Positions 50,244 through 61,740 of a stretch of 64,000 nucleotides of DNA are shown piece after piece. The DNA is taken from the NCBI GenBank assembly GCA_025358305.1, contig JANYJZ010000041.1:1-64000 (forward strand), given 5' to 3'. Made by a program: the position numbers and the translations under genes. A model generated the notes under the pieces. The model was not told where the DNA came from. It saw only the letters and a program-made list of their open reading frames with translations, and did no database searches. Position 1 is the first letter of the stretch, and each line of letters opens with the position of its first letter. The stretch comes from Ignavibacteriota bacterium (GTDB taxonomy: Bacteria; Bacteroidota; Ignavibacteria; UBA10030; SZUA-254).

Positions 50244-51527
50244 CTACTCTCCTGTCGTTTCCAATGTGGTGAACTCGTCCCAGAACCGCGGGAACGATTT
50301 TGCGACGCACGCCGGGTGCGAGATCGCGACCCCGGCGAGTGCGAGTCCGGCGACCGCGAAGCTCATCGCGATCCTGTGGTCGTGGTACGTTTCGATCTCG
50401 GCGCCGTGGAGCGCCCCGGGCCGGATCACGAGGCCGTCGTCGAGAAGGTCCACCGACGCGCCGAGCTTGGAGAGTTCCGCCTGGATCGCTTTGAGGCGGT
50501 CGGTCTCCTTGTAGCGCAGATGGGCGATGTTCCGGATCGTCGTTGGCCCCTCGGCGAAGAGCGCGACGACGGCGAGGGTCGGGACGCAGTCGGGCATGGC
50601 GTTCATGTCGGCCTCGATGCCGTGCAAACTCCCGCCCTTGAGCTCGAGCGCGTCCTGGTGCGGCTGCGCCGTGCAGCCCATGGCGACGAGGAGCTCGATG
50701 AACCGGACGTCGCCCTGGAGCGAGGCCCCTGAGAGTCCGGGGACGAGGACCGTGCCGCCGGTGACGGCCGCCGCGGCGAGAAAATAGCTTGCCGAGGAGG
50801 CGTCGGGCTCCACGAGGTAATTGCGCGAGGTGTAGCGCCGGGTGTTTCCCACGCGGTAGCGTCCTCGGGCGGAGGCGTCGGCATCCACTTCGGCGCCGAA
50901 CGCGCGCATCACATTGAGTGTCATGTCGATGTACGGCTGCGAACTTTGCGCTCCTTCGACCTCGATCTCGACAGGGTCCCGGGCGTACGGGGCGGCCAAG
51001 AGGAGCGCCGAGAGGTACTGGCTGCTCTTGTCCGCGCGCACCGTGATCCTGCCTCCGGCGAACGTGCCCCCTTCGACCGTCACCGGCGGAAATCCCCCGC
51101 TGCTCGAGGTGCGGACGCCCGCGCTCGCGAGCCCTTCGAGGAGGTCGCCGATGGGTCTGAGTTTCATCTGCGCGTCACCGGTGATCGTGGTCGCGCCTGT
51201 GGCGAGCGCGGCGAGCGCGGTGAGGAACCGGAACGTCGTGCCGGCGTTCCCCATAAAAAGCGGCTTCTTCGGCGCCGTCAAGATGCCGCCGGTTCCCATG
51301 ACGAACGATTCGGCGGCTTCGGCGCCGATCCTGACGCCGAAGGCGACGAGCGCGCCGGCAAGATAGTTCGTGTCCTGGCTTTTCGAGGGAGCGCTCAGGA
51401 CGGAGCGTCCCGCCGAGAGCGCGGCGCAGACCAGGGCCCTGTTCGTGAAACTCTTCGACGGCGGGACGCGCAGCACATGGTCGACGGTCTTCGCCCGTCG
51501 GATGAGGCGCGGCGGGGTCTTCGTCAT
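50244..51527 (-). CDS. aroA: 3-Phosphoshikimate 1-carboxyvinyltransferase (EPSP synthase)
   Basis: A 427-residue enzyme joining shikimate-3-phosphate and PEP. Seen: RVPPSKSFTNRALV at the N-terminus, MGNAGTTFRFLTALAAL (PEP site, with Gly-Asn-Ala-Gly), MNAMPDCVPTLAVVALFAEG and LRYKETDRL, then DHRIAMSFAVAGL. The ATG at 51527 is in an ATGA overlap with aroDE; the longer open frame upstream is the aroDE gene out of frame. Confidence 0.94.
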   Translation of the reverse strand: MTKTPPRLIRRAKTVDHVLRVPPSKSFTNRALVCAALSAGRSVLSAPSKSQDTNYLAGALVAFGVRIGAEAAESFVMGTGGILTAPKKPLFMGNAGTTFRFLTALAALATGATTITGDAQMKLRPIGDLLEGLASAGVRTSSSGGFPPVTVEGGTFAGGRITVRADKSSQYLSALLLAAPYARDPVEIEVEGAQSSQPYIDMTLNVMRAFGAEVDADASARGRYRVGNTRRYTSRNYLVEPDASSASYFLAAAAVTGGTVLVPGLSGASLQGDVRFIELLVAMGCTAQPHQDALELKGGSLHGIEADMNAMPDCVPTLAVVALFAEGPTTIRNIAHLRYKETDRLKAIQAELSKLGASVDLLDDGLVIRPGALHGAEIETYHDHRIAMSFAVAGLALAGVAISHPACVAKSFPRFWDEFTTLETTGE

Positions 51528-52945
51528 CCCGACCATTTCATGAAGATGTTCGACTGGAGCTCGGCCTGGTGGTTGAAGAACTCCATGCCGGAGATGATCT
51601 TGCAGCCGGCGGCCTCCGCCTCGAGGAGGAGCGGGGTCATCGGCGGGTTGTAGACCGCGTCGAAGACGATCATCTCCTTCCGGAAAAACGCCTTCGGGAC
51701 GAGGCTCTTCTTGTGGTCCGGCGACATGCCGACCGGGGTGCCGTTCATGAGGATGTCGGGCTGGATCGACGCGAGCGCGCTCATCGGGGCGCTCTCGCAT
51801 CCCAAGGCGAGGGCGAGGGCGTGCGCCTTCTCCTCGGCACGGCCGACGATCGTCACCCGGGCGCCGTTGAGGATCGTCGCGTATGCCATCGTCTTCGCCG
51901 TCGCGCCCGTGCCGAGGATGACGACCTCCTTGTGACGCAGCGCGGTGCGCTTCTGCAGGAGGTCGGCGATCGCGGGGAGGTCCGTGTTGTAGCCGACGAG
52001 CTTCCCTTTGCGAACGATGACGGTGTTCACTGCGTCGAGGTTCTTCACCTCCCCCTCGATCTCGTCGAGGAGAGGGATGATCGCCTGCTTGAAGGGCATC
52101 GTGATGCTGAGGCCCGCAAAGAGGTCGCGGTAGGTGCGCAGGAACCCCTCCAGGTGGTTCACAAGAAAATTGACGTAGACGGCGTTCACGCTCGAACGCT
52201 GGAAGATCGCATTGTGGAGGAAGATCCCCTTGCTCTGCGAGACGGGGTTGCCGACGAGGCCGAAGATCTTCGTGCGGCGGTTGTAGCCGGCGACGGCGAA
52301 GATCTTTCTGAGGTCGTCCAACACGAGCTGGCCCGGGGCCGTGCAGGCCTCCTCGTCCTCGGCGCCGTAGGTGAGGAACCCGCCGAACACTCCTTGGAGG
52401 ATCCGGCTGATCTGGCCGTGCTCACCCATGCAGAGGCCGATGATCTTCTTGTCGGCCTTGCTCACGTTCTTGACGATGTCGAGCATCCGGCGGTTGTCCC
52501 CGATGTCCCGGGCCATCGTCGCAAGCTTGATGATGTCGGCGCCGGTCCCGAGGATCTTCTGGCAAACGGCGTCGAGTCCCGACGGCGTCTCGTCGAAGTT
52601 GTGGTACGACACGATGATCTGGGTGTTCCCCCGAGCGTCGATGAGGGGCCGGAGGACGTCCGGCCCGTAGCTCAGCTCCACGTCGATGTACTCGGCCCCC
52701 AGGGCGATGGCCTGGGAGAGGATCGCGAGCTGGTCCTTCGGCGTGCCGCGGAACTTTCCTCCTTCCTCCTTGCGCCGGTTGGTGATGATCACCTTGGGCC
52801 GAGGGCGTTGGAGGAGCTTTTCGAGTTTCAGGTCGGCGATCCCGTCGACGCGGATCTCGATGAGATCCGCCGGGTGCGACCCCTGTTTGAGTTTTGCCCG
52901 GGCTTCCTGGATCGTCCCGGGAGCGACGGAGAGGCAGAGCTTCAT
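51524..52945 (-). CDS. aroDE: Fused 3-dehydroquinate dehydratase (type I) / shikimate dehydrogenase
   Basis: A 473-residue bifunctional enzyme for two consecutive shikimate steps. Residues ~1-215 are type I AroD: IEIRVDGIADL, IIVSYHNFDETPS (catalytic His) and ADIIKLATMA (Schiff-base Lys). Residues ~225-473 are AroE: FGLVGNPVSQSKGIFLHNA (shikimate site), LSITMPFKQ (catalytic Lys), GYNTDLPAI, VVILGTGATAKTMAYA (nucleotide loop), LMNGTPVGMSP and the final GMEFFNHQAELQS. The same fusion order is known in plants and some bacteria. It overlaps both neighbours by 4 nt. Confidence 0.94.
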   Translation of the reverse strand: MKLCLSVAPGTIQEARAKLKQGSHPADLIEIRVDGIADLKLEKLLQRPRPKVIITNRRKEEGGKFRGTPKDQLAILSQAIALGAEYIDVELSYGPDVLRPLIDARGNTQIIVSYHNFDETPSGLDAVCQKILGTGADIIKLATMARDIGDNRRMLDIVKNVSKADKKIIGLCMGEHGQISRILQGVFGGFLTYGAEDEEACTAPGQLVLDDLRKIFAVAGYNRRTKIFGLVGNPVSQSKGIFLHNAIFQRSSVNAVYVNFLVNHLEGFLRTYRDLFAGLSITMPFKQAIIPLLDEIEGEVKNLDAVNTVIVRKGKLVGYNTDLPAIADLLQKRTALRHKEVVILGTGATAKTMAYATILNGARVTIVGRAEEKAHALALALGCESAPMSALASIQPDILMNGTPVGMSPDHKKSLVPKAFFRKEMIVFDAVYNPPMTPLLLEAEAAGCKIISGMEFFNHQAELQSNIFMKWSG

Positions 52946-54030
52946 GGCGTGCAGTGCTTCATGATGGTGGAATGGGTGACGGGTATGCCGTGCCGCGCCG
53001 CGCCGATCCGGCGCAGAAGCGTGTAGTGGACGGTGCCGCCGGTGGCCTTCTTGTCCCGAGCGGTGTAGGGGAGGAGTTCCTCGAGCGTGACACGTGCCGG
53101 GAGCGTTGTCGGCAGGGCGTAGAGTCCGAGAAGCGCCACGAGACGCGCCGCGTCCCGGGCGGAGGCGAGCCCCATGCCGGCGGAGAGCTCCGCCTCAACG
53201 GCCATGCCGATCGCGACCGCTTCCCCGTGGAGCATCGTGTAGCGCATCCGCGCCTCGAGGGCGTGGCCGATCGTATGGCCGAAGTTGAGGAGACGTCTGG
53301 GGCCCGCCTCGCGCTCGTCCTTCTCGACGAGTGCCGCCTTGAGCTCGCACGAGCGCTGGACGATCACCCGGAGACACGATGGCTCCTTCCGCAAGATCCG
53401 CCGGGCGTTCTTCTCCAGGTAGGCGAAGAGCGTCCGGTCGAAGATCGCCGCACATTTGACGACCTCCGCCATGCCAGCGCGGAACTCCCGGTCCGGAAGC
53501 GTCCGGAGTGTCGCGAGATCGATATAGACCATGCGGGGCTGATGGAAGGCCCCGAGGAGGTTCTTGCCGAGGGGATGGTCGACGGCGACCTTCCCGCCGA
53601 CGCTCGAGTCGACCTGCGCGAGAAGCGTCGTCGGGATCTGGACGTACGCGATGCCTCTGAGGAGCGTTGCCGCAACGAACCCGGCGACGTCCCCCACAAC
53701 CCCGCCCCCGACGGCGATCAGGAGCGCGTCGCGTGTCACGCCGCGCGCGAGCATCTCGTCCTCGATCCGGTCGCGCGTTGCACGGGTCTTCTGCGCCTCG
53801 CCCGCCGGGAACGCGAGGACCGGGACCTGCTCGCCCTCCTGGCGGAAGGACCAGGCAAGCGAACGCGCGTAGAGCGGCTCGACGTTCGTGTCCGTGATGA
53901 TGAACTTCCTCGCCGCCGGCCAGCGCTTCCGGATGTCCTTCGCGGCCCGAGCGATGCTTGTGCCGATGACGATGTCGTACGAGTCGTCGACCGTCTTGCG
54001 GAGCCGTATGGGGAGCCGAGTCGGTCTCAT
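52942..54030 (-). CDS. aroB: 3-Dehydroquinate synthase
   Basis: A 362-residue NAD- and zinc-dependent enzyme converting DAHP to 3-dehydroquinate. Seen: FPAGEAQKTRAT, VGGGVVGDVAGFVAATLLRG (NAD site), PTTLLAQVDSSVGGKVAVDH, GMAEVVKCAAI, and the metal ligands in LLNFGHTIGHALE and LHGEAVAIGM. The start overlaps trpA by 4 nt. Confidence 0.95.
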   Translation of the reverse strand: MRPTRLPIRLRKTVDDSYDIVIGTSIARAAKDIRKRWPAARKFIITDTNVEPLYARSLAWSFRQEGEQVPVLAFPAGEAQKTRATRDRIEDEMLARGVTRDALLIAVGGGVVGDVAGFVAATLLRGIAYVQIPTTLLAQVDSSVGGKVAVDHPLGKNLLGAFHQPRMVYIDLATLRTLPDREFRAGMAEVVKCAAIFDRTLFAYLEKNARRILRKEPSCLRVIVQRSCELKAALVEKDEREAGPRRLLNFGHTIGHALEARMRYTMLHGEAVAIGMAVEAELSAGMGLASARDAARLVALLGLYALPTTLPARVTLEELLPYTARDKKATGGTVHYTLLRRIGAARHGIPVTHSTIMKHCTP

Positions 54031-54821
54031 GGCGTCGGGGCGTCGAGGCGCTCGCGGACCGAGCGGGTGAACGCCCGGGCCTCGTCGGGCGTGCCAGTGG
54101 CGAGGATCTTGATGAGCGCGCTGCCGATGACGACGCCGTCGGCCGTATGGGCGGCATCGCGCGCGTCCTCGGGGGTCGCGATCCCGAACCCGACCATGAG
54201 CGGGTGGTTCCGGGCATGCGTCCTGGCTCGGTCCATGAACCCGACCGTCGAGGCCGCCACGCCGGTTCGGGCGCCGGTGACCCCGGCGACGGCGACGCAG
54301 TAGAGGAACCCGCTCGTCGCCTCGTCAAGGAGCTTGAGGCGCTCGTCGGAGGTCGTCGGCGCCGCGAGAAGGACGCTTGCGAGGCCGTGCTGGTGTGCGA
54401 GCGCGCGGTACTCGCCGCTCTCCTCGAGCGACAGGTCGGGAATGATCGTCCCGTCGATCCCGACCGACGCGCACGTCTGGACGAACCGCGTGGCGCCGTA
54501 GGCGTAGATGGGGTTGGCGTATCCCATGAGGACCAACGGGATGTTGGAGGCGGCGCGGACCTCCCTGGCCATCTGGAAGGTCCGTTCGAGCGTCATGCCG
54601 TTGGCCAGAGCGACCGAGGAACTCTCCTGGATCGTCGGGCCGTCGGCGATCGGGTCGGAGAACGCGATGCCGAGCTCGATCATGTCGGCCCCGGCGCGCT
54701 CGAGCGCCAGGATCAAGGGCACGGTCGTTTCGAGTGTCGGGTACCCCGGCGTGACGTAGAGCGAGAGGACCTTGCGGCCTTCCGACTTGCGGAGCGCGAA
54801 GAGGGGTGCGAGCCGGTTCAT
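54027..54821 (-). CDS. trpA: Tryptophan synthase alpha chain
   Basis: A 264-residue TIM-barrel that cleaves indole-3-glycerol phosphate to indole. Catalytic Glu and Asp are in [20 protein letters not shown], with [30 protein letters not shown], the phosphate-binding GVTGAR and [11 protein letters not shown] also visible. It overlaps trpB by 4 nt and forms the alpha-beta complex with it. Confidence 0.95.
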
Positions 54822-56026
54822 GCCGTTCGGGACCTCGCGAGGCCGGCGGTGATGGCGGGGAGGTCCTTTTCCCCCCTCCCTGAGAGGTTCACGACAACGA
54901 TGGTATCTTTCTGGGTGTCGGGCATGAGCGTCTCAAGATACGCTATGGCGTGGGAAGTTTCAAGCGCGGGCAAGATCCCCTCAAGCCGCGCAAGCCGCAA
55001 GGCCGCGTCGAGCGCCTGGGAGTCGGTGACGCTCGCGTAGGTGGCGCGCCCCATATCGCGCAGGTAGCTGTGTTCCGGGCCGACGCCCGGATAGTCGAGT
55101 CCCGCCGAGATCGAGTGGGCCGGCGAGATCTGGCCGTCCTCGTCCTGGAGGACGTAGCTGTACGAGCCGTGGAGGATGCCGGGGGTGCCCATGGTGAGCG
55201 TCGCGGCGTGCTCGCCCGTCGTGATGCCGCGGCCCGCCGCCTCGACGCCGATGAGCGCCGTCGCTTCCTCGAGGAAGGGGTGGAAGAGTCCCATGGCGTT
55301 GCTCCCGCCGCCGACGCATGCCAGGAGGATGTCGGGGAGGCGGCCTTCGCGCTCCATGGACTGGACCCGGACCTCGCGTCCGATGACCGACTGAAAGTCC
55401 CGGACCATCATCGGGTAGGGATGGGGTCCGACGACCGAGCCGATGACGTAGAACGTGTCGTCGACGTTCGTCACCCAGTCGCGCAAGGCCTCGTTCGTCG
55501 CGTCCTTGAGCGTCCTGGTGCCCGCATGGACGGGGATGACCTCCGCGCCGAGGAGGCGCATTCTTGTGACGTTGATCTCCTGCCGCGCCATGTCCTCCGT
55601 TCCCATGTAGACCGCGCACGAGAGGCCCATCATCGCGGCGACGGTCGCCGTCGCCACCCCATGTTGCCCCGCCCCGGTCTCGGCGATGATCCTCGGCTTG
55701 CCGAGCATTTTCGCCAGGAGGATCTGTCCCACCGTGTTGTTGATCTTGTGCGCCCCCGTGTGGCAGAGGTCCTCACGCTTCAAGTAGATCTTCCCGCGGC
55801 CGAAGCGCTCCGAGAGCCGCTTCGCGTGGTAGAGGGGCGTCGGCCGGCCGACGTACTCCTGGAGCAGCCGGTCGAAGTCGCTTCGGAACGCTCGGTCCGA
55901 CCGCGCGGACACGTACGCCCTTTCGAGCGTCTTCAAGGGCGTCATGAGGGTCTCGGGGACGAACATGCCGCCGAACGCGCCGAAGTGCCCCCGCTCGTCG
56001 GGCAGCGCGGCCTGTGCGGGCGTCAT
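54818..56026 (-). CDS. trpB: Tryptophan synthase beta chain
   Basis: A 402-residue PLP enzyme joining indole and serine. Seen: [34 protein letters not shown] with the PLP Lys, [14 protein letters not shown], the phosphate-binding [12 protein letters not shown], and [12 protein letters not shown]. It is a standard TrpB1 by length and motifs. It overlaps aroF by 4 nt. Confidence 0.96.
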
Positions 56027-57069
56027 GGGAGCGCCTCCGCGCCTGCGTGGGCTGGGGTGAACGTCCGGTCCATGATCGGGGCGAGCTGCTCGAGCTTGTC
56101 CAAGAGCCGCTTCATCTTTGCGGGTTTGAGCGACTGGTAGCCGTCGGAGAGCGCCATCGCGGGGTCCTGGTGGACCTCGACGATGAGCCCGTCGGCGCCG
56201 GCCGCGATGGCCGCCAGGGACATCGCCATGACGCCGTCCCAGACGCCGATGCCGTGGCTCGGGTCGACGATGACCGGGAGGTGCGAGAGCTTCTTGATGA
56301 TCGGTATCGCGTTGAGGTCGAGCGTATTACGGGTGGCGGGCTCGAACGTCCGGATGCCCCGCTCGCAGAGGATGACGTTGTAGTTCCCGCCGTTGAGGAT
56401 GTACTCTGCGGCCATCAGGAGCTCCTCGATCGTGGCGGCCAGGCCCCGCTTCAACAGGACGGGCTTCCGGATGTCGCCGAGAGCCTCCAGGAGGGAGTAG
56501 TTCTGCATGTTCCGGGCCCCGACCTGGAGGATGTCGGCGCACTCGGCGACGATGGGGAGTGTCTCGGTGTCCTTCACCTCTGTGACGATCCTGAGGCCCG
56601 TGGCGTCCTTCGCGTCCTTGAGGTACTGCAGGGCCTCATCCTTCAGTCCCTGGAAGGAGTAGGGGGAGGTCCGGGGCTTGTACGCCCCGCCGCGCAGGAA
56701 CTTCACCCCCTGGCTCTTCAGGGCGAAGGCGACGTCGATGATCTGCTGCCGGCTCTCGACCGAGCAGGGCCCGGCGATAACGGCGAGCTCTCGGGCGCCG
56801 ATGGGCTCCCCGTCCACACGGACGACGGTATTCTCCGCCTTGACGTCGCGGCTGACGAGCTTGAACGGCTTCGAGACGGGGATCGCCTCGACGACGCCGG
56901 GGAGGTTGAGGAACATCTCGGGGTCGAGCTTCCCCTGGTTGCCGGTGATGCCGATCGCGAGCCGCTGTTCCCCTGGTATCTCGTGGGGCGTAAAGCCGAG
57001 CTTCGAGATCCGTTCCTTGACGCGGTCGATGTCCTCGCGTTCCGCGCGGAGCTTCATGACAATGAGCAT
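56023..57069 (-). CDS. aroF: 3-Deoxy-7-phosphoheptulonate (DAHP) synthase, type I-beta
   Basis: A 348-residue first enzyme of the shikimate pathway. A ferredoxin/ACT-like N-terminal domain (~1-75; [16 protein letters not shown]) precedes the barrel: [75 protein letters not shown] and [15 protein letters not shown]. The N-terminal domain is the usual site of allosteric control in this subfamily. It lies 12 nt downstream of trpF inside the super-operon. Confidence 0.95.
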
Positions 57070-57081
57070 GGTGTTGTTCCT

Positions 57082-57705
57082 TTAGTGCAGTGAGTCGTGA
57101 TGGTGACGTAATCGTTCAAAGAGCAGTGTCACGCGCCCATGGTCTTTCACGCCCGGCGAGGCCTCGACGCCGCTGTTGACGTCGACGGCATAGGGGAGGA
57201 CGCTCCGGGCGGCCCGGACGACCGTATCGGGCGTGAGCCCGCCGGCGAGGTAGAGCGGATGGAAGGCCTTCATCGCAAGGGCGACCGCCGTGTCGGCCAT
57301 GACGCCGGAGCCCCCGTACTGGCCGTCGGCCGCGCCGTCGAGCATCGCGGCGGCGACCGCAAAGTCGCGGGACATGAGCGACTCTGACGGCTCGGTGAAC
57401 CGAAACGCCTTGATGACCGGAAGGGGGTAGCCGGTGCAATCCTCGGGAGATTCATCGCCGCTGAGCTGCAGGGCGCGGATCCCGGTCCTCGCGATGACGC
57501 GCTCGATCTCGCCACGCGCCGCATTGACGAAGACGCCGACAGGCGTCACGTACGGGGGAAGTTCCGCGATGATCGCCGCGGCCGTCTCCGCGGAGACGGC
57601 GCGGGGGCTCTTCTCGTAGAAAATGAACCCGAGCTCGTCCGCCCCCGCCCGAGCGCAGAAGAGCGCGTCCCCGGCGTTCGTCATGCCGCAGATCTTCACC
57701 TTCAC
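57082..57705 (-). CDS. trpF: Phosphoribosylanthranilate isomerase
   Basis: A 207-residue TIM-barrel. Seen: VKICGMTNAGDA with the catalytic Cys, GADELGFIFYEKSPRAVS, VGVFVN, IRALQLSGDESPE, YLAGGLTPDTV, and the catalytic Asp in YAVDVNSGVEASPGVKDHG. It overlaps trpC by 4 nt as a separate gene, not a fusion. Confidence 0.95.
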   Translation of the reverse strand: MKVKICGMTNAGDALFCARAGADELGFIFYEKSPRAVSAETAAAIIAELPPYVTPVGVFVNAARGEIERVIARTGIRALQLSGDESPEDCTGYPLPVIKAFRFTEPSESLMSRDFAVAAAMLDGAADGQYGGSGVMADTAVALAMKAFHPLYLAGGLTPDTVVRAARSVLPYAVDVNSGVEASPGVKDHGRVTLLFERLRHHHDSLH

Positions 57706-58490
57706 TGGGCAGCCCCCTCGAGGAGTTCCCGAAGCGCGCCGCCCGGGGAGTCCGCCTTCATGCAGTATTCGCCGATGAGGGCCGAGCGTATCCCGGCGTC
57801 GCGCAGGCGGAGGAGGTCCGCCGGGCCCGCAACGCCGCTTTCGCTGACGACCGTGACGTCCGGGGGAAGGAGGCGCGAGACCCGTATGGCGTGGTCCTTC
57901 CTGATGGTGAACGTCCTCAAGTCTCGGTTATTGACGCCGATGAGCTTCATCCTGTCGGTGTCCAATATATCGATCTCCTTCTCCTCATACAATTCCACGA
58001 GGCACTGCAAGCCGAGCTCGAACGCCGAGGCGAAGAGTTCGGCCAAGTGGCCCCGGTCGAGGATGGCCGCGATCAAGAGCACCGCGTCGGCGCCCGCCGC
58101 CTTCGCTTCGGCGACCTGGTATGGGTCGATGAGAAAGTCCTTCCGCAAGAGCGGAAGCGCGGTCCTCGCTCTGACCTCTGTGAGGTCCGAAAGCGATCCG
58201 CGGAAGAACGTTGCGTCCGTCAGGACCGATATCCCAGCGGCGCCGGCGGCCGTGTAGGCCTCGGCGATACCTGCGGGGTCGGCGTCTGTGCGCAGTTCTC
58301 CGGCCGATGGGGAGGAGCGCTTGATCTCGGCGATGATCCCGAAGACCGGCGCCGTGACGAGCGACGACCGAAGGTCGGACGTCGATCGTCCATACAACGG
58401 CGAATCCTGGAGCCGGGAGGACGGGACGTCGCGTTTGCGCCGGGAGATCTCCGAGCGCTTTTCCTCCACGATGCGGTCGAGGATGTTCAT
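57702..58490 (-). CDS. trpC: Indole-3-glycerol-phosphate synthase
   Basis: A 262-residue TIM-barrel that decarboxylates and cyclises CdRP. Seen: MNILDRIVEEKRSEI, IIAEIKRSSPSAGELR (catalytic Lys), ISVLTDATFFRGSLSDL, PLLRKDFLIDPYQVAEA (second Lys), LIGVNNRDLRTF and VSESGVAGPADL. The ATG at 58490 makes an ATGA overlap with trpD; upstream codons in frame only read trpD in the wrong frame. Confidence 0.95.
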   Translation of the reverse strand: MNILDRIVEEKRSEISRRKRDVPSSRLQDSPLYGRSTSDLRSSLVTAPVFGIIAEIKRSSPSAGELRTDADPAGIAEAYTAAGAAGISVLTDATFFRGSLSDLTEVRARTALPLLRKDFLIDPYQVAEAKAAGADAVLLIAAILDRGHLAELFASAFELGLQCLVELYEEKEIDILDTDRMKLIGVNNRDLRTFTIRKDHAIRVSRLLPPDVTVVSESGVAGPADLLRLRDAGIRSALIGEYCMKADSPGGALRELLEGAAQ

Positions 58491-59497
58491 CGGTTCGTGT
58501 ACTCCCGGAGTGCGTTGAGTTTTTGGAGCGCGCTCCCGGAATCGATCGACTCCGCCCCGAGCGCGACCCCTTCGGGGAGCGTCCGAGCCCGGCCGGCCAT
58601 CAAGAGGGCCGCCGCGGCGTTCGCCAGGACGACGTCTCGTCCCGGGCCCTTCTCGCCGGAGAGGATCCCGCGCGCGATCCGCGCATTCTCTTTGGCGCCG
58701 CCGCCGGAGAGGCTCTTCGCCGCCAGAGGTTCGAGTCCGAACGACGCATGGGACAGCGTGTCGGTCGCGGCTGCTTTCCCCCGGGCGAGCGTATAGGACC
58801 GCGTCGGCGCACTGAGCGAGATCTCGTCCAGGCCGTCCTCGCTGTGCACGACCATGACGGCGGCCGGTTGGAGCGCGGCGAAGACCGAGGCGAGAAGTTC
58901 CGCCGCTCGCGCGCTGAAGGCGCCGGCGAGCTGGCGCTGGACCCGGGCGGGGTTCGTCAAAGGCCCCAGGAGGTTGAAACAGGTCTTGATGCCGAGCTCG
59001 GACCGTGGCTTTGCGGCGTGGCGCATGGCGGGGTGGAACAAGGGCGCGAAGAGGAACCCGATGCCCACCGTATTGATGCACGCCTCGACCTTCTCTGGGG
59101 AGATGTCGATATTGACGCCGAGTTCCTGGAGGAGGTCGGCGCTGCCGCACGCGCTCGAGACGGAACGGTTCCCGTGCTTTGCGACGGTGACCCGCGCGCC
59201 GGCCACGACGAACGAGGCGACCGTCGAGATGTTGAACGTGCCGGTGCCGTCGCCGCCCGTCCCGCAGAGGTCGACGGCGTCGGGGTCGTCGAGGCGGACC
59301 CTGACGGACTTCTCGCGCATCACGGCCACGAACCCGGCGAGTTCTTCGGCCTGTTCCCCCTTGAGTTTCAACGCGACGAGGAACGCGGCGATTTGGGCCG
59401 GCGTCGCGTCCCCTTCCATGATCGTGCGCATGGCGCAGGAGGCCTCGTCGTGCGTCAGGTGCGCCCCCTCGGTGACCTTCCGGATATGCTCCTTCAT
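58487..59497 (-). CDS. trpD: Anthranilate phosphoribosyltransferase
   Basis: A 336-residue transferase of PRPP onto anthranilate. Seen: DLCGTGGDGTGTFNISTVAS (PRPP loop), VAKHGNRSVSSACGSADLLQELGV, FAPLFHPAMRH and LLGPLTNPA. The ATG at 59497 is in an ATGA overlap with trpG and has AAAGGAG upstream, which is preferred to the longer frame. Confidence 0.95.
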   Translation of the reverse strand: MKEHIRKVTEGAHLTHDEASCAMRTIMEGDATPAQIAAFLVALKLKGEQAEELAGFVAVMREKSVRVRLDDPDAVDLCGTGGDGTGTFNISTVASFVVAGARVTVAKHGNRSVSSACGSADLLQELGVNIDISPEKVEACINTVGIGFLFAPLFHPAMRHAAKPRSELGIKTCFNLLGPLTNPARVQRQLAGAFSARAAELLASVFAALQPAAVMVVHSEDGLDEISLSAPTRSYTLARGKAAATDTLSHASFGLEPLAAKSLSGGGAKENARIARGILSGEKGPGRDVVLANAAAALLMAGRARTLPEGVALGAESIDSGSALQKLNALREYTNR

Positions 59498-60072
59498 GAG
59501 AGCTCCTTTCCGTCGGAGAGCCAATTGGCGATGATCCTCGCCCCTGCGGGAGTGAGGACCGATTCGGGGTGGAACTGTATCCCCTCGACCGGAAACTCTC
59601 TGTGCCGGACGCCCATGATGACGCCGTCGGGGGTCCTCGCGCTCACGACGAGCGCCGAAGGAAGACCCTCCTCGGCGATGACGAGCGAATGGTACCGGGC
59701 GGCCGGAAAGCCCTGCTCCAACCCCCGAAAGATCCCTCGGCCGTCATGATCGATCGTGGAGGTCTTCCCGTGGAGGAGGCTCGGGGCGTGGACGATGGCG
59801 GCCCCGTACGCCGCACCGATGGCCTGGTGCCCCAGGCAGACCCCCAGGATGGGGACCGTGGGCCCAAGCGCCCGAATCAGCGCGACCATGCAGCCGGCGT
59901 CCTCCGGCCGCCCCGGTCCCGGGGAGAGGAGGATGCACGCGGGCGCCAAGCCGGCGACGGCCGCGGCGTCGAGGTCGTCGTTCCGGACGACGCGGATGTC
60001 CCTCGTGTGCGCCCCCAAAAGGTGGACGAGGTTGTACGTGAACGAATCGTAGTTGTCGATGACGAGGATCAT
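59494..60072 (-). CDS. trpG: Anthranilate synthase component II (glutamine amidotransferase)
   Basis: A 192-residue class I amidotransferase supplying ammonia to TrpE. Seen: LVIDNYDSFTYNLVHLLG, the oxyanion segment LSPGPGRPEDAG, the nucleophile in VPILGVCLGHQAIG, and the catalytic His and Glu in VEGIQFHPESVLTP. The 4-nt overlap with trpE implies balanced synthesis of the two subunits. It could also serve p-aminobenzoate synthesis; no pabB is nearby. Confidence 0.95.
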   Translation of the reverse strand: MILVIDNYDSFTYNLVHLLGAHTRDIRVVRNDDLDAAAVAGLAPACILLSPGPGRPEDAGCMVALIRALGPTVPILGVCLGHQAIGAAYGAAIVHAPSLLHGKTSTIDHDGRGIFRGLEQGFPAARYHSLVIAEEGLPSALVVSARTPDGVIMGVRHREFPVEGIQFHPESVLTPAGARIIANWLSDGKELS

Positions 60073-61532
60073 GACTCGATCCCTTCGGCCAATGTGAGCG
60101 CCTCGACCAGGGCTCGCCCCTTGTTGATCGTCTCCCGGAACTCGGCCTCTGGGTCGGAGTCCGCGACGATGCCCGCGCCGGCCTGGAGGGCGATCCGGCC
60201 GCCGGCGGAGACCAGGGTCCGGATGGCGATGCACATGTCCATGTTGCCCGAGAAGTCGAAGTAGCCGACCCCGCCAGCGTAGAGGCCCCGGCGGCTCCGT
60301 TCGAGCTCGTCGATGATCTCCATGGCGCGGATCTTCGGGGCGCCGGAGACCGTCCCGGCCGGGAAGGCCGCCCGGAGGAGGTCGACCGCCGTGCGTCCCG
60401 GCTCGAGCGTCGCACGGACGCGCGACGCCAAATGCATGACGTGGGAATATTTCACGATGCCCATGAACTCGTCGACCCTGACACTTCCGAGTTCGGCGAC
60501 GCGGCCCAAGTCGTTCCTCCCGAGGTCGACGAGCATGACGTGCTCGGCGCACTCCTTCGCGTCGGAGCGCAGCTCGGTTTCCAGGAGGAGCTCTTCGGCG
60601 TCGGTCGCGCCCCGGGGGCGCGTGCCGGCGATGGGGAACGTCTCGGCGAGCGTCCCTTCCTTCCGGACGAGGATCTCCGGGGAGGAGCCGATAACGTGAA
60701 CTCCGCCGAAGTCGAGGTAGTACATGTAGGGCGACGGGTTGACGACGCGCAAGGCACGGTAGACGTTGAAGTCGTCCCCCGTGCACGGGGCGGTGAAGCG
60801 CTGGGAGAGGACGACCTGGAAGATGTTCCCCTGCCGGATATGCTCCTGGGCCCGGGCGACAATCGCGAGGAACTCTTCCTTCGTCGTCTCGGCCGTCAGG
60901 GCGCCTCTGTCGGACGAGAATCGGCCCGCACGGGCGGTCGTGTCCTTGAGCGCCCGTTCGTTCAGCGCGATCTCCTTCCGGGCGTTCTCATACGCTCTGG
61001 CGAGATGGGCCGGATCGGGCTCGATGACGTTGACGATGATGGTGATCTGGTGCTTCCGGTGGTCGAAGGCAAGGACCGTCGAGAAAAGCCCGAGAACGGA
61101 ATCGTCCGCGTCCAAGGAGCGCGGCTTGCCCGCAGGCAGGCGTTCGATGTACCGGACCGCGTCGTATCCGATGTACCCGACCCATCCGCCGGTGAACCGT
61201 GGGAGCGCGGGGACAGGCGGCTGGCGGTAGCGCGCGGTGAGGGAACTGAGCTCGGCAAAGAAGTCCTGGGCGCCCGAGCGGTCGCGGCCGTTCTCGGTCA
61301 CCGTCGTCACCGTGCCATCGCACCGGATCATGGCGACCGGGTCGCGGCCGATGAAGGAGTACCGGGCGAGCTGTTCGGTCCCCTCGACGCTCTCAAACAG
61401 GAACGAAGACCGGGCCCCCGCGCGAAGGCGCACGTAGGCCGAAACCGGCGTAAGCGTGTCGGCCAGGAGGGTCCGGGTGACCGGGATGACGTTGTACTCC
61501 CGGGCGAGCGATATGAAGGTGTCGAGTTCCAT
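60069..61532 (-). CDS. trpE: Anthranilate synthase component I
   Basis: A 487-residue chorismate-utilising enzyme making anthranilate. The N-terminal region contains the feedback motif FLFESVEG (Ser48 in the position of the Trp-binding LLES Ser), suggesting Trp inhibition. The catalytic domain shows GNIFQVVLSQRF, PSPYMYYLDFGG, SSPEILVRKEG, PIAGTRPRG, LLETELRSDAKECAEHVMLVDLGRNDLGRV and GTVSGAPKIRAMEII. The ATG at 61532 is taken as the start; the extra 15 codons upstream would fall in the attenuator. It is the first structural gene after the leader. Confidence 0.95.
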   Translation of the reverse strand: MELDTFISLAREYNVIPVTRTLLADTLTPVSAYVRLRAGARSSFLFESVEGTEQLARYSFIGRDPVAMIRCDGTVTTVTENGRDRSGAQDFFAELSSLTARYRQPPVPALPRFTGGWVGYIGYDAVRYIERLPAGKPRSLDADDSVLGLFSTVLAFDHRKHQITIIVNVIEPDPAHLARAYENARKEIALNERALKDTTARAGRFSSDRGALTAETTKEEFLAIVARAQEHIRQGNIFQVVLSQRFTAPCTGDDFNVYRALRVVNPSPYMYYLDFGGVHVIGSSPEILVRKEGTLAETFPIAGTRPRGATDAEELLLETELRSDAKECAEHVMLVDLGRNDLGRVAELGSVRVDEFMGIVKYSHVMHLASRVRATLEPGRTAVDLLRAAFPAGTVSGAPKIRAMEIIDELERSRRGLYAGGVGYFDFSGNMDMCIAIRTLVSAGGRIALQAGAGIVADSDPEAEFRETINKGRALVEALTLAEGIES

Positions 61533-61553: not shown

Positions 61554-61589
61554 GAAAAGCCCTTCCTGGCGATCCAAGAAGGGCTTTTC
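61554..61589 (-). terminator. Attenuator terminator hairpin (3:4) upstream of trpE
   Basis: On the minus strand GAAAAGCCCTTC and GAAGGGCTTTTC form a perfect 12-bp stem. TTGG/CCAG in the loop can extend it to about 16 bp around an ATCG tetraloop. A modest T-rich tail (TGCGTTTTAT) follows, 22 nt before the trpE start. Its 5' arm and loop overlap the sequence needed for the antiterminator. Confidence 0.85.
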
Positions 61590-61667
61590 GGAAAAAATAA
61601 AAGCGAATTGCTAATCCATTCTTTTCACGCCGCGAGCAAAGGAATCACCCCACCACCAGTAACGGCG
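61568..61667 (-). promoter_or_regulatory. trp attenuator alternative RNA structures (1:2 and 2:3)
   Basis: Region 1 (CGCCG, 61663-61667, just before the Trp codons) can pair with region 2 (CGGCG, 61628-61632). Region 2 extended (61616-61631: GGCG, AAGAA and GG blocks) can instead pair with 61568-61583 (CC, TTCTT and CGCC blocks), which would destroy the terminator. A ribosome stalled on the Trp codons covers region 1 and favours the antiterminator; one that reaches the stop codon covers region 2 and lets the terminator form. This is the standard trp attenuation logic, read here from complementarity by eye. Confidence 0.75.
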
Positions 61668-61706
61668 ATATGCATCAGGGGGCGCGATGGAATAGATGTT
61701 CTGCAT
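61611..61706 (-). CDS. trpL: trp leader peptide with three consecutive Trp codons
   Basis: A 31-codon ORF with ATG at 61706 and TAG at 61611-61613. Codons 17-19 (61658-61650) are TGG TGG TGG, inside the peptide segment RRYWWWGDSF. Three adjacent Trp codons in a short ORF directly before a terminator-like hairpin and trpE is the hallmark of ribosome-mediated trp attenuation. No Shine-Dalgarno is visible, and the predicted transcription start falls at or within a few bases of the ATG, so the mRNA may be leaderless. The stop codon sits right beside region 2, as in the enterobacterial trp leader. Confidence 0.88.
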   Translation of the reverse strand: MQNIYSIAPPDAYRRYWWWGDSFARGVKRMD

Positions 61707-61711
61707 AGTGT

Positions 61712-61740
61712 ACGATACAAAGATTTCAGGAAGATGTCAA
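61712..61740 (-). promoter_or_regulatory. trp operon promoter
   Basis: Minus strand TTGACA (61735-61740, perfect -35), a 17-nt spacer and TATCGT (61712-61717, four of six). It ends 5 nt before the trpL ATG, placing the start of transcription at about the A of the ATG. Confidence 0.75.

Follow-up and report, generated by a model that had tools for sequence, protein, structure and literature searches.

Does the trp operon of this member of the Ignavibacteriota carry, upstream of trpE, a ribosome-mediated attenuator that responds to the charging of tRNA-Trp, as the original prediction proposed? We addressed this question in a window of 64,000 nt (positions 1 to 64,000 of contig JANYJZ010000041.1, assembly GCA_025358305.1), in which all features described here lie on the minus strand. 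The operon consists of ten genes, trpE, trpG, trpD, trpC, trpF, a DAHP synthase gene, trpB, trpA, aroB and a fused aroD-aroE, and holds the complete trp pathway. Its first gene, trpE (anthranilate synthase component I, 60069..61532, ATG at 61532), matched TIGR00564 above the cut-off, and the genes that follow (51524..60069) were assigned from NCBIfam matches and open reading frames. Since the DAHP synthase gene, aroB and the fused aroD-aroE belong to the operon, one Trp-sensing leader would also control the entry into the shikimate pathway, which would make the element a control point for both the shikimate and the tryptophan pathways in these bacteria.

In the direction of transcription, the region is ordered as promoter, 5 nt, leader ORF, 21 nt, terminator hairpin, 21 nt and trpE ATG. 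The promoter TTGACA-N17-TATCGT (61712..61740; TTGACA at 61740-61735, TATCGT at 61717-61712) has the 17-nt spacer that had been claimed and matches the consensus at 10/12 positions, and the trpL-like leader ORF (61611..61706; MQNIYSIAPPDAYRRYWWWGDSFARGVKRMD followed by TAG) likewise has the 31 codons and the three consecutive Trp codons described for it, TGG TGG TGG at codons 17-19 (61650..61658), the predicted stall site. A short ORF carrying consecutive Trp codons is therefore located between a promoter and the first trp gene, and an intrinsic terminator between its stop codon and trpE, as in an attenuator. The terminator hairpin (61554..61589, tail UGCGUUUUAU) has a 4-nt loop and a stem of 16 consecutive pairs including one G-U; the first 12 pairs from the base are Watson-Crick, so that the perfect 12-bp stem of the original prediction is present within a longer one. 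The full terminator has an energy of -26.4 kcal/mol, and its U tract is interrupted (UGCGUUUU) and is a good one only with the CUUUU at the base of the stem included. Altogether, the 173-nt leader RNA folds with -61.8 kcal/mol, compared with -45.0 +/- 3.9 in shuffled sequences (z -4.3). The hairpin is a good terminator by itself, which would also suit a fixed partial terminator accompanied by an incidental ORF, setting a constant level of trp transcription or ending an upstream or short transcript with no sensing of Trp.

In an attenuator, the RNA just past the Trp codons should form an antiterminator exclusive with the terminator, and such a structure was found. Its 5' strand is region 2 (GGCGUGAAAAGAAUGG, 61616..61631), a block in the last leader codons that is conserved as GGYG..ARAGAANGG in 6/6 aligned members of the window's family, and its 3' strand is region 3 (CCCUUCUUGGAUCGCC, 61568..61583), made up of the 5' arm and loop of the terminator and the first bases of its 3' arm. 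Region 2 is complementary to the 5' arm plus the loop (CCcUUCUU-GGAU-CGCC), the family antiterminator being composed of GGYG:CRCC, ARGAA-type purines:UUCUU and GG:CC with one fixed mismatch; in the window GGCG:CGCC replaces the GGUG:CACC of 5/5 relatives, a compensatory change from U-A to C-G. When the RNA downstream of a ribosome positioned at the Trp codons was folded alone, this antiterminator was the minimum-energy structure (-13.3 kcal/mol). Being weaker than the terminator, it makes the outcome dependent on timing. As a plain duplex between region 2 and the terminator 5' arm, the pairing in the window sequence is no better than chance (z 0.01), which favors the fixed terminator and had first suggested that there was no antiterminator at all; this reading was overturned once the terminator loop was included. 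The claimed complementarity between regions 2 and 3 is thus clear with the loop and does not hold for the 5' arm taken on its own.

The same relationship extends through the phylum. When the partners were swapped by permuting loci, 0/2000 permutations reached the observed pairing, both with the 5' arm alone and with the loop, a result that is to be read as co-variation and not as a probability because the loci are related and not independent; within family f1 alone the permutation had no power, as the f1 terminators are nearly identical. Together with the compensatory pair of the window's family, this phylum-wide co-variation of partners supplies the covarying stems that were to be sought in relatives, and it argues against a fixed terminator. 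In Balneolaceae-like and several other families, codons soon after the Trp run form a perfect complement of the 5' arm, with most z values between -3 and -5, and the antiterminator of the window is weaker than that of the Balneolaceae-like relatives. Families f5 and f12, from the class of the window, use the same antiterminator logic with different letters: in L102, L093, L091 and L095, region 2, located near the leader stop, is not confined to the 5' arm but pairs with the loop of the terminator and the flanks on either side of it, with 13 consecutive pairs in L102. The median position of region 2 is 28 to 10 nt upstream of the leader stop, mostly within the footprint of a terminating ribosome.

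The pairing of regions 1 and 2, also part of the original prediction, presents a different picture. Without a ribosome, the fold of the leader in the window is dominated by a helix of at least 15 pairs that joins region 2 to codons 4-9, the possible region 1 (61681..61697); at -22.6 kcal/mol it is strong, and it was equalled in 6% of shuffles. Similar pairing is found in L031 and L032, of the window's family, where 1% of shuffles equal it. Across 104 leaders, however, 1:2 pairing was barely above shuffled sequences (mean z -0.28; 16% at p <= 0.05), so that the comparison within the phylum lends the helix no support as a general feature. The footprint of a ribosome halted at the Trp codons would begin downstream of most of the helix's 5' strand. 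Folding with a stalled ribosome, a check proposed at the outset, hence gave two answers: the downstream RNA alone folds into the antiterminator, but with region 1 available for pairing, the model still favors the 1:2 helix even when a ribosome is masked at the Trp codons. Judging from the model, the helix may represent an off state in the absence of translation.

Regarding the start of the transcript, the -10 element of the window ends 5 nt from the leader AUG, and transcription usually starts about 7 nt past the -10 hexamer; the leader mRNA is for this reason probably leaderless or nearly so, with the RNA polymerase predicted from the -10 position to start at the AUG or adjoining it. The original prediction had not touched on this point. 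Five relatives of the same family keep the promoter as CTTGAC...TCTTCGTATCNT. Promoter-like sites (score >=8/12) were found upstream of 66/105 leaders, and 35 of these sites end 5-10 nt upstream of the AUG, where shuffles would yield 0.85. A predicted leaderless leader is worth noting because leaderless mRNAs are rare in Bacteroidota: two transcriptome studies give 5.5% of mRNAs in Flavobacterium psychrophilum (PMC9723704) and about 3.7% of 5' UTRs shorter than 10 nt in Bacteroides thetaiotaomicron (PMC7366714).

Taken as a whole, the parts of the element, their conservation and the co-variation of regions 2 and 3, which the sequences and their comparison provide directly, lead us to regard it as a classical ribosome-mediated trp transcription attenuator, with a probability of about 0.9. 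We infer from them the following course of ribosome stalling, termination and response to Trp. RNA polymerase would start at or beside the leader AUG, and a ribosome would load on the probably leaderless mRNA and, following the polymerase, translate the leader peptide. When charged tRNA-Trp is scarce, the ribosome would wait at codons 17-19, leaving region 2 free to pair with the 5' arm and loop of the terminator; the terminator would then not form, and trpE and the downstream operon would be read. With ample charged tRNA-Trp, the ribosome would reach the stop codon and cover region 2, the hairpin would form, and transcription would end about 20 nt upstream of trpE. Since an ORF with three Trp codons and a terminator hairpin precede it, the trp operon is probably fully read only when charged Trp-tRNA is low.

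How widely this arrangement is shared was assessed by locating trpE, with TrpE as the query, in 296 genomes from the phylum plus 60 close relatives, and then in 30 further genomes. An ORF encoding three consecutive Trp residues was found in 63/116 regions upstream of trpE, against 0.0 in Markov shuffles, and one encoding two in 79/116, against 4.1; the conserved TGG runs looked for in relatives are accordingly present. Counting as an element a Trp-run ORF followed by a terminator 15-65 nt past the leader stop, and excluding the truncated loci L053 and L054, we found leader and terminator upstream of trpE at 102/143 Bacteroidota loci and in 29/42 sampled families; the fractions come from loci picked mostly by best TrpE match, which sample the phylum unevenly, and the placement of these loci in Bacteroidota was made by matches to labelled records. 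Of the 8 loci from the window's own family, 7 had the element, and the eighth (L035) has only 333 nt upstream. Furthermore, a covariance model built from five relatives of the same family, with the window excluded, gave 59.8 bits for the window copy and identified it as the sole strong match in the whole genome (E 1.2e-12; next 0.054). Retention of trpE without the leader in relatives, which was to speak against the proposal, does occur in the order of the window, in f4 (0/4) and most of f2 (2/7 have the element), but in a different upstream context, and the element is also absent from f8, f24, f19, f26, f37 and f41; families devoid of it likely reflect loss or another control. At L046, L047, L049, L052 and L055-L058, of f4 and f2 and without a Trp leader, trpE is preceded, sometimes across a long gap, by a gene that we labelled by eye from its sequence as threonine-aldolase-like. 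Beyond the phylum search, among 79 named trpE loci sampled across phyla, leader-like ORFs with three consecutive Trp occurred only in L119 (Balneolaceae) and L122 (Bacteroidetes), and one gammaproteobacterial record, L196 (SWRWW), was also plausible. Three members of f30 share 73-80% TrpE identity with a named Balneolaceae record, and f30 is thus probably Balneolaceae.

What is kept across the phylum is the TGG run, the spacing from leader stop to terminator and the complementarity between region 2 and the terminator, while the peptide flanking the Trp run differs between families; this agrees with the proposed sensing of Trp-tRNA. A fixed terminator next to an incidental ORF would not account for a Trp run whose presence, position and spacing to the terminator persist in 29 families as the flanking peptide varies, and we regard it as very improbable. 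The same comparison bears on a leader of the TnaC type, in which free tryptophan would be sensed through nascent-peptide arrest instead of tRNA charging. Here too a Trp-containing leader peptide precedes a Trp-related operon, but TnaC-type arrest requires conserved residues around the arrest site, whereas the families studied here have the Trp run alone in common, and TnaC controls a catabolic operon via Rho, whereas the operon in the window is biosynthetic and has an intrinsic terminator; of the alternatives considered, we give this one the least credit. A main role in trans for a short RNA or the leader peptide, with attenuation secondary, would resemble the one proposed for Sinorhizobium meliloti rnTrpL/peTrpL, and the predicted leaderless start and predicted terminated short transcript are shared with rnTrpL (PMC7298713). 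The variation between families of the peptide outside the Trp run speaks against a shared role of this kind, which we consider slightly less probable still than a fixed terminator. Searches for other known regulators found neither TrpR (Trp_repressor, PF01371) nor TRAP (TrpBP, PF02081) in the whole genome, nor a T-box RNA (Rfam) in the window. The same genome, rated 100% complete, had no match to hisG (TIGR00070) or leuA (TIGR00973), and the organism is possibly auxotrophic for histidine and leucine.

By its sequence-testable features other than 1:2 masking, the attenuator of the window is a member of the Escherichia coli type. Like E. coli trpL, it has a leader ORF with consecutive Trp codons directly upstream of trpE, a region 2 between these codons and the leader stop, and an antiterminator opposed to an intrinsic terminator. 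It differs from trpL in a predicted leaderless start that leaves no room for a Shine-Dalgarno site, in an antiterminator that takes in the terminator loop, in a 1:2 helix that is not generally conserved and in the TrpR not found in its genome. The trpL-trpE(G) system of S. meliloti offers a parallel in two respects, namely a trpL transcript whose 5' end is its ATG, a start only predicted for the window, and attenuation without Trp-dependent transcriptional repression (PMC7298713); it belongs, however, to another phylum and has a leader of 14 aa against 31 aa in the window, whose operon comprises the complete pathway plus shikimate genes.

Leader-peptide attenuation is taught on the basis of Proteobacteria. 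Our results extend its trp form over much of a further phylum, the Bacteroidota. The remark that such a leader is much less familiar in an FCB-type organism was fair, but the element is no oddity there. In the same phylum, the F. psychrophilum and B. thetaiotaomicron transcriptomes give hints in general terms of leader-peptide-like attenuation, as short peptide leaders upstream of amino-acid operons or within long 5' UTRs, and the available parts of these papers describe no trp leader, antiterminator or its spread (PMC9723704, PMC7366714). The trp leader of Bacteroidota thus appears hardly described, and an earlier specific prediction in older literature is possible. We lean slightly towards an old leaderless trp attenuator of Bacteroidota, of early origin, present in most families, devoid of a 5' UTR and, in several lineages, with an antiterminator that draws in the loop of the terminator and the beginning of its 3' arm; if so, it would rank among the chief Trp-specific controls of the phylum, as a leader family that Rfam lacks. 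A trp attenuator across much of Bacteroidota predicts that transcription-translation coupling is tight enough there for attenuation, in a phylum whose studied species lack Shine-Dalgarno sequences (PMC9723704), and the element could serve as a simple in vivo reporter of such coupling and of leaderless initiation. Searches of Rfam, Pfam and NCBIfam recognized neither the leader RNA nor the leader peptides, and the Rfam model RF00513 (Trp_leader) had no match in the window at its gathering threshold or even at E up to 1. The leader of one relative (L025:1380-1491) did match RF00513 over its full length, but its 34.3 bits fall short of the gathering score, 41.
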